Below are positions 42,740 through 43,743 of a stretch of 57,693 nt of DNA, one piece after another. The stretch spans positions 1 to 57,693 of the forward strand of contig JACPHP010000010.1 in NCBI GenBank assembly GCA_016188605.1. Reading direction: 5' to 3'. The notes under the pieces are model-generated. The model saw nothing but the letters and a program-made list of their open reading frames with translations. It ran no database searches and was not told the origin of the DNA. This stretch comes from Candidatus Spechtbacteria bacterium. GTDB taxonomy: Bacteria; Patescibacteriota; Minisyncoccia; Spechtbacterales; JACPHP01. The position numbers and the translations under genes are program-made. Each line of letters begins with the position of its first letter. The first letter of the stretch is position 1.

Positions 42740-42814
42740 GGCGCCTTCGTCTAGTCTGGTCCAGGACGCATGGTTCTCATCCATGTAACATGGGTTCGAA
42801 TCCCGTAGGCGCTA
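42740..42814 (+). tRNA. tRNA-Glu (anticodon CTC), CCA not encoded
   Basis: Acceptor GGCGCCT (42740-42746) pairs with AGGCGCT (42807-42813), with G-U as the first pair. The D-arm starts GTCT, the anticodon stem CATGG/CCATG encloses TTCTCAT with anticodon CTC at 42776-42778, and the T-arm is ATGGG-TTCGAAT-CCCGT. The discriminator is A42814; the following bases are CTA, so CCA must be added. Its 3' end is repeated several times downstream. Confidence 0.9.
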
Positions 42815-42846
42815 CTAAAATAATATGGTGTTTTTCCTTTAATTTA

Positions 42847-42872
42847 AGTAGCGCATACGGGATTCGAACCCA
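42847..42872 (-). repeat. Inverted copy of the tRNA-Glu 3' end
   Basis: 26 bases that match the reverse complement of 42791-42816 (T-arm through acceptor end) with one mismatch. It could pair with the tRNA transcript or form an inverted attachment site. Confidence 0.85.
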
Positions 42873-42884
42873 TCGAAGGGGGTC

Positions 42885-43066
42885 GGGGAAACATTTGTTT
42901 CCCCGTGGCGGAAACAATCCCGCAGTGGCGGGATGTTAGAACCGAGGGGTTCTAAGGTGAGCCGATGTTGTATCGGCTCACCGGGGGCTAATCCCGTAGG
43001 CGCTACTAAAAAGGTTAGCCGATGCGTGTACCGGCTAACCGGGGCCAATATCGTAGGCATTACTGA
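42885..43066. repeat. Hairpin array with two direct copies of the tRNA-Glu 3' end
   Basis: Five hairpins follow one another: 42885-42904, 42917-42934, 42936-42955, 42956-42982 and 43013-43040, most with loops of four or five bases. The last two belong to a tandem unit of about 57 bases (42956-43012 and 43013-43066), each made of a GGT-AGCC-GAT stem and then a copy of the tRNA 3' end. 42990-43011 equals 42799-42820 over 22 bases; 43047-43064 is a degenerate copy. No gene is seen in 42815-43068. Confidence 0.8.
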
Positions 43067-43068
43067 TT

Positions 43069-43743
43069 ATGGCTACTATTAAAAAATATCAATTTGCGGT
43101 CATTGCCACCGATGTGGTGATATTTACGATTCAGAATAACGAGCTGAAAGTTTTATTAATTAAGATGAAGAAGTCGCCATTTACTGGCCGCTGGGCTGCG
43201 CCAGGTGGGCTTGTTGGTCCAAACGAATCAGTGGATGAATCGGCGGCGAGGCATCTTGTTGAAAAAACAGGATTAAAAAATGTGTATATGGAGCAGCTAT
43301 ACACATTCGGTAAAGTAAATCGTGATCCGTTCGGTCGCGTGGTTTCCGTTGCTTATTCCGCGCTTATTCCGCCCGATGCCAAAGTGAAAATCTTTACAAC
43401 AGCGGAATATCAGGACATCGCGTGGTTCCCCGCGAGACATTTACCAGCTATAGCATACGACCACAAAGAGATTATCTCTTATGCAATAGAACGTTTAAAG
43501 TCTAAGCTTGAATATACAAATATTGTCTATAGCTTGATGCCAAGAGAGTTTACGCTCGGTGAACTGCAAGACGTTTACGAGTTAATTTTAGGCAGAAAGC
43601 TTGATAAACGTAATTTTCGCAGAAAAATTGCATCAGCTAGGATGATAAGAGAGCTTGCTAAAAAACGAGAAGGAGAGGCAAATCGTCCCGCGGCTCTTTA
43701 TATTTTCACTAGTCACAAGCCACAGAAGGTAGAAATGATTTAA
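43069..43743 (+). CDS. Nudix-winged helix regulator, NrtR-like
   Basis: A 224-residue protein with an N-terminal Nudix fold (residues 8-150) and a C-terminal winged helix (FTLGELQDVYELILGRKLDKRNFRRKI, abbreviated). In NrtR regulators the Nudix part senses ADP-ribose and controls NAD-related genes. The Nudix box is degenerate: GGLVGPNESVDESAARHLVEKTG, cited by its key positions, has RH and EK where hydrolases have RE and EE, so binding without hydrolysis is expected. The start lies six bases after the tRNA-like array. No NAD gene is adjacent; the NADH dehydrogenase at 17504 or the FMN reductase could be targets, which is only a guess. Confidence 0.78.
   Translation: MATIKKYQFAVIATDVVIFTIQNNELKVLLIKMKKSPFTGRWAAPGGLVGPNESVDESAARHLVEKTGLKNVYMEQLYTFGKVNRDPFGRVVSVAYSALIPPDAKVKIFTTAEYQDIAWFPARHLPAIAYDHKEIISYAIERLKSKLEYTNIVYSLMPREFTLGELQDVYELILGRKLDKRNFRRKIASARMIRELAKKREGEANRPAALYIFTSHKPQKVEMI

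Follow-up and report, generated by a model that had tools for sequence, protein, structure and literature searches.

A candidate base-pairing-targeted mobile element, small and non-coding, that replaces gene ends in Patescibacteria

The window analysed here is a stretch of 57,693 nucleotides, contig JACPHP010000010.1 of a Candidatus Spechtbacteria bacterium (assembly GCA_016188605.1), and it carries an array of hairpins and of inverted and direct copies of a tRNA 3' end immediately after a tRNA-Glu gene. The array probably represents a small non-coding mobile element, inserted once and accompanied by what is left of an earlier insertion; the element would find its target by base pairing and restore the tail of the gene that it enters. 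Comparison of its copies at the nucleotide level shows a new, widespread, covarying, non-coding family, which has a target-complementary arm, replaces gene ends and varies in presence and absence at orthologous sites.

A nucleotide search of 55 relatives found that the sequence beyond the inverted copy, and not the tRNA alone, recurs elsewhere. The central ~100 nt of the family form a folded, covarying core. Hairpins 1 and 3 of this core covary in a plain alignment of 15 recurring sequences from relatives (alignment A1), which was not fitted to a model. In 41 model-aligned copies, 98.3% of the cells are paired, double-change cells number 65 compared with 21 in shuffles, and slid versions of the alignment collapse; this alignment was fitted to the covariance model and leans towards it, a bias from which the covariation in A1 is free. 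The covariance model matches the core in 96 of the 286 genomes of the window's class (E<=0.001), with up to 13 copies per genome and one match in the window's own genome, and also in 15 genomes from other Patescibacteria classes. The preliminary description of the array, made from the window alone, had stated that a random local duplication would be favoured if no second occurrence were found in any related genome; the module recurs, so the idea of insertion survived this check.

The exact core pattern is present in 86 stretches among GTDB contigs, whose titles, where informative, name groups of Parcubacteria or Patescibacteria (Colwell-, Lipton-, Yanofsky-, Wolfe-, Harrison-, Terry- and Uhrbacteria), apart from two archaeal-titled assemblies. 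These two contigs with the element (L166 and L179), titled Nanoarchaeota and Euryarchaeota archaeon, could be mis-titled or mis-binned, or could reflect a transfer to archaea. The exact core pattern is absent from viral contigs, and phage and plasmid records give no match to the element. Rfam has no match to the core at the gathering score or at E<=5, the weak sub-threshold matches being unrelated, and no earlier description was found in the openly licensed literature, which omits most subscription journals. The family is apparently undescribed.

The anatomy of the unit was compared in a set of 202 distinct copies. On the core strand, the body of the host gene is followed by the gene end (x1 and then x2), by a short spacer, by the arm x1' and, after 5 to 8 nt, by GGGGTC. 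The core continues with hairpin 1, GTGGYGGAAA, an optional hairpin 2, hairpin 3, GGAG, hairpin 4 and CGAC, after which come a copy of x1-x2 and then the native downstream DNA. The x1' arm is 12-25 nt long and complementary to x1, and the length of the unit is narrowly distributed (median 182, interquartile range 171-206). A direct repeat scores above the best control in 65% and an upstream hairpin in 61% of 156 copies, the controls, about 20 per copy, being made by re-pairing the flanks of different copies.

The host is a tRNA gene in 89 of the 202 copies, which cover 19 isotypes, and here the tRNA end lies a median of 64 nt upstream of the core and the sense orientation is called in all but one. 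The module is not tRNA-specific, since the other 113 copies lie away from tRNA genes. Many of these are found at the 3' ends of gyrB, fusA, rpsI (S9), rpsJ (S10), rplR, rpmJ, pgk, gap, nusG and rpsG, or, in antisense orientation, at fusA, lepA and dnaX, where they adjoin the 5' end; host gene names were read from the translated ends. Sites at protein genes are built in the same way although they contain no tRNA sequence, so the earlier suggestion of a regulatory RNA that mimics the tRNA end, as a decoy for CCA addition or RNase P, is unsupported. On the strength of the recurrence at protein genes, tRNA mimicry was rejected, as were a CRISPR and a local duplication.

Two subtypes stand out among the copies. 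Seven tRNA copies (L024, L025, L027, L030, L050, L051 and L069) have a downstream T-arm with a small hairpin (GGTTCTAG...CGGAATCC), which suggests that one lineage jumped between tRNA genes via the shared T-arm. A multi-copy intergenic subtype (L082, L083, L086, L087 and L088, in genomes G019 and G047) has CTCCCTTTGGAGGGAG-type flanks and no recognisable gene end.

In the window, the array is built as follows, with all features on the plus strand:

42740..42815, plus strand: tRNA-Glu(CTC), the host gene, found with ARAGORN and Rfam, whose 3' part serves as the unit's upstream gene end (x1-x2)
42790..42821, plus strand: x1 with flank (T-arm, acceptor and 3' flank), the pairing partner of x1' in inverted repeat I1
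42822..42841, plus strand: short spacer (b) from the gene end to x1', by direct reading
42842..42873, plus strand: x1', the target-complementary, guide-like arm, with 94% complementarity to 42790-42821 and the same place relative to the core as in other copies
42878..42884, plus strand: conserved junction strand GGGGGTC, 5' of hairpin 1, near-invariant in alignment A1
42884..42905, plus strand: core hairpin 1, a covarying stem
42905..42914, plus strand: conserved junction strand GTGGCGGAAA, near-invariant in alignment A1
42917..42934, plus strand: hairpin 2, variable and missing from some copies in alignment A1
42936..42955, plus strand: core hairpin 3 (ACC-GAGG-GGT top), a covarying stem
42956..42982, plus strand: hairpin 4, the right end of the core, from the fold and from a covariance-model match at 42875-42978
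42983..43011, plus strand: downstream gene-end copy (x1-x2), probably the displaced native end, in direct repeat D1 with 22 nt exact
43013..43068, plus strand: remnant of an older unit, with a second hairpin 4 (43013-43040) and a decayed gene-end copy (43041-43068), the third member of D1 (62%)

The repeats and folds of the array had been described correctly. A copy of the 3' end of the tRNA-Glu lies inverted at 42842-42873 in arms of 32 nt, which are 94% complementary and have the one reported mismatch within the last 26 tRNA bases. Two direct copies follow at a spacing of 57 nt, at 42983-43011 (22 nt exact within 29) and, in the degenerate form noted before, at 43040-43068 (62%). All hairpins of the reported chain of five were located, four of them before the first direct copy (42884-42905, 42917-42934, 42936-42955 and 42956-42982) and the fifth after it (43013-43040), and 42815-43068 folds with much higher stability than its dinucleotide shuffles (z = -7.95). 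The repeated unit of the family covers only ~42842 to 43011 of the window, and 43012-43068 resembles what remains of the right-hand side of an earlier unit, pushed downstream by a newer insertion. The serial insertion of hairpin modules at the tRNA 3' end, as first proposed, is upheld in part, by recurrence at tRNA ends of related genomes and by tandem units elsewhere, but the module is the ~180-bp x1-x2-x1'-core and not the 57-base unit, and it is not confined to tRNA genes. A reading frame for a NUDIX-like hydrolase, recognised by eye, occupies 43069-43743 of the window and starts directly 3' of the last decayed gene-end copy.

The differences between the two gene ends of a unit indicate their origin. 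Upstream and downstream ends differ almost only synonymously at genuine coding ends, with synonymous/other counts of 11/0 for gyrB (L156), 10/1 for fusA (L097), 11/1 for PGK (L153), 9/1 for GAPDH (L140), 10/2 for the 3' end of fusA (L111) and 3/0 for S10 (L056); loci with non-genuine coding ends, in which the frames were picked by length only, are left out of these counts. At least one single "non-synonymous" count consists of two changes in one codon that are jointly silent. Both ends derive from working genes, because a dead duplicate would not keep its codons. The fusA site is empty in genome G103. In G121, the downstream fusA end occupies the native position beside rpsG and is nearer to G103, with 8 versus 11 differences by eye; the upstream end, together with its 5' untranslated region, is similar to the G061 element. 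The S10 site is occupied in G195 and empty in six relatives, so that presence/absence variation at orthologous sites is found for both fusA and S10. Since the ends differ mostly synonymously and empty sites exist, the element appears to import a new gene end and to displace the native one, as observed in the fusA genes of G121, G061 and G103, in the synonymous differences and at the empty S10 sites.

The x1' arm follows the gene in which it is found. Most of the non-tRNA copies with a recognisable repeat have an x1' that matches their own x1 and lies at the same place before GGGGTC, and the score of x1' against its own x1 is higher than the orthologue mean in 101 of 111 copies (Wilcoxon p 6e-19). 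In units whose two gene ends are not identical, x1' matches the upstream one in 43 cases and the downstream one in 3; this is the fairer count, a ratio of 63:3 being biased by the choice of x1 and one of 171:15 having run past the aligned repeat. The arm thus covaries with the local upstream x1, so that x1, x2, x1' and the core are inherited together as a single unit. At a gene of unknown function in three related genomes (L023, L048 and L074), the x1/x1' stem persists despite a shrunken x2, which hints that the stem itself is kept.

The two strands of the element are not equivalent. On the core-sense strand, G.U pairs exceed A.C mismatches by 21:4 in hairpin 1, by 44:21 in x1/x1' and by 7:3 in hairpin 3 (72:28 overall), in counts from a stem finder that treated both alike as mismatches. 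If the changes were mutations of double-stranded DNA, the two types would be equally frequent, so the excess argues for selection of the core-sense strand as a folded single strand. This strand probably acts in that form, most likely as RNA, single-stranded DNA being possible.

Tandem, partial and permuted units were found at several sites. The tRNA-Arg site of G008 has two identical tandem units of 163 bp and a third that is cut just after GGGGGTC (L289 820-1170; G008:C2:26320-26670), and partial extra units in L085, L155 and L171 are cut 3-13 nt after GGGG, so partial downstream units end near GGGG(TC) in four loci. L052, at a tRNA-Pro, and L091, at a similar tRNA-like end, have an extra core upstream of the main core; it is circularly permuted, closes on hairpin 1 and lies between x1' and the gene-end copy. 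These arrangements are compatible with a circular intermediate, or with an end close to GGGG/GTC, four cases being few.

Mobility machinery was compared between 15 high-copy and 15 zero-copy genomes for six families. Reverse transcriptase (RVT_1) is present in 4 high-copy and 5 zero-copy genomes, LAGLIDADG_3 in 10 and 6, and the Y1 transposase (Y1_Tnp) in 8 and 7, while the TnpB zinc-ribbon model is found in at most 1 of each, and none of these tracks the element. The IS110 recombinase, found in 0 high-copy genomes and 1 zero-copy genome, does not track it either. The tyrosine recombinases, compared at family level only, consist of a single PF00589 protein in most high-copy genomes and likewise in element-free ones, which indicates that carriers have no extra integrase. 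A unit of ~180 bp leaves no room for a gene, so a site-specific recombinase is not encoded by the element. A distant upstream repeat, which would be the sign of a large autonomous element, is absent from the part of the copies examined.

The proposed mobile unit of ~180 nt would comprise an imported x1-x2 gene end, a short spacer, x1' and the folded core. Base pairing through x1' would direct the unit to the corresponding conserved sequence of a different genome, and copying or recombination between the x1-x2 of the unit and that of the host would insert it. The host gene would gain a complete new end and its old end would be left downstream, which is the outcome of a single crossover with a circle of ~180 bp, and repeated entry, or more than one trip round the circle, would lead to tandem units. 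Cutting and joining could be due either to an unrecognised protein, to host recombination after DNA uptake or to catalysis by the core itself. A protein-free, self-mobilising RNA, in which a new catalytic core guided by x1' inserts a circle of ~180 nt into DNA or transcripts at matching gene ends, is decidedly unlikely; it would be a minimal homing element that is retargeted by changing one arm.

Several points weigh against a base-pairing-targeted mobile element. The case is drawn from sequence alone, and most if not all of the genomes are metagenome assemblies. No transposase, recombinase, reverse transcriptase or guided nuclease is linked to the element, and no larger autonomous relative was recognised. 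About one third of the copies have no clear second gene end, probably through decay. The argument for an imported end is worked out in detail for a single gene family, fusA in three genomes, and otherwise draws on the synonymous differences, and the test with further native and imported pairs is limited.

That none of the six mobility families tracks the element would agree with passive spread, in which the unit arose once per gene through a rare event and moved between species only by ordinary homologous recombination after DNA uptake, with the gene body and the downstream gene-end copy as homology arms and no dedicated mobility. The sites are the most conserved genes, where cross-species recombination is easiest, and the product would be the same as that observed. 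This explanation is rather unlikely, as it does not account for the presence of one and the same core at almost every tRNA isotype and in dozens of genes that are unrelated, for the complementarity of x1' to each local target or for the fixed length of the unit. The covarying core and the G.U preference, which indicate selection on a folded single strand, would also be expected of a stationary regulatory or structural RNA that serves the host gene in 3' processing, termination or antisense control, with the gene-end duplications as a by-product, and a hairpin resembling a terminator precedes x1' in the tRNA copies. Such a role is very unlikely: at fusA, lepA and dnaX the same element lies antisense at the 5' end, it is patchy among relatives, with 1 copy in the window's genome and up to 13 elsewhere, and orthologous genes without it are intact.

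The folded core-sense strand, four loci whose partial units break off 3-13 nt past GGGG, as might happen at an RNA terminus or a strong stop, and the existence of circularly permuted cores could point to a reverse-transcription element, retrozyme-, retron- or group II-like, in which a unit-length and possibly circular RNA is copied into DNA at a nicked target and the gene end is a target duplication. An RVT_1 match is missing from 11 of the 15 high-copy and 10 of the 15 zero-copy genomes, and gene ends that differ only synonymously are unexpected of a target duplication, so this origin is highly improbable. Template switching can produce inverted and direct copies of a tRNA end. A local artefact, either a duplication with snap-back (template-switch) synthesis at the tRNA or an assembly error, nevertheless has a negligible chance of being correct, as the same core and geometry occur with covariation at hundreds of loci in independent assemblies, and for the family it is already refuted.

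Several known systems share features with the candidate mobile element. Tyrosine-recombinase islands in the 3' ends of tRNA and other genes rebuild the end of the host gene and leave the native end as a direct repeat. Gene-end restoration and a displaced native end are common to both, but the element, of ~180 bp, contains no open reading frame and has no integrase associated with it, its target sequences are numerous and unrelated, and a folded core lies next to its inverted copy of the target. Fungal mitochondrial elements of the Allomyces atp6 type replace the C-terminal end of a gene and carry an endonuclease gene. They resemble the element in the functional foreign tail, the native tail downstream and the homing-like choice of conserved genes, whereas the element has a non-coding folded core and a complementary arm. 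In integron attC cassettes and the CTX-phi attachment site, a folded single strand has a stem that presents the recombination sequence. The attC-like structure proposed earlier is only a loose likeness: a folded strand with a presenting stem and tandem units are shared, but the stem of the element is target-specific and has no recombinase motif, its conserved part is the loop core and no extra integrase was seen in its carriers. A constant R'/R'' core-site motif was not seen at the stem ends, where x1/x1' is target-specific.

The bridge RNA of IS110 is a structured non-coding RNA with target-complementary segments (PMC11208160). Such segments and a similar RNA size range are common to both, but the element replaces a long gene end, the 15 high-copy genomes have no IS110 (DEDD) recombinase, and, compared with the separate target and donor loops of IS110, the element has one target-complementary arm and no second loop was recognised. 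Retrozymes and other small circular ribozyme RNAs (PMC7761336) have unit-length folded RNA, tandem genomic copies and circular permutation of the core, as in the element, which differs in having no known ribozyme motif, in the import of a gene end and in the lack of reverse transcriptase in most carriers. The rRNA genes of the Candidate Phyla Radiation (CPR) hold insertions, some of which encode a homing endonuclease (PMC11270868). They come from the same bacterial radiation and also target conserved genes (PMC11270868), while the element is a non-coding, end-swapping unit. Group I and group II introns, diversity-generating retroelements and retrons were considered, and the core has no match to a known RNA family in Rfam. 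Membership among IS200/IS605, TnpB-guided or REP/RAYT elements is likewise unsupported, as neither the Y1 transposase nor TnpB tracks the element. A CRISPR array, which the preliminary description had already dismissed, would have identical repeats and unique spacers of equal size; most sites have a single unit and the repeats are gene ends.

If the proposed mobility is true, a large part of the Patescibacteria would carry a class of very small elements without proteins, which find their sites by base pairing and rewrite essential genes at their ends. These elements would add a non-coding equivalent of homing endonucleases and of transposons guided by RNA, and would represent a compact principle of guided insertion. 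They would account for an overlooked way in which species exchange gene ends, and would point to an unidentified activity in the little-known Patescibacteria.
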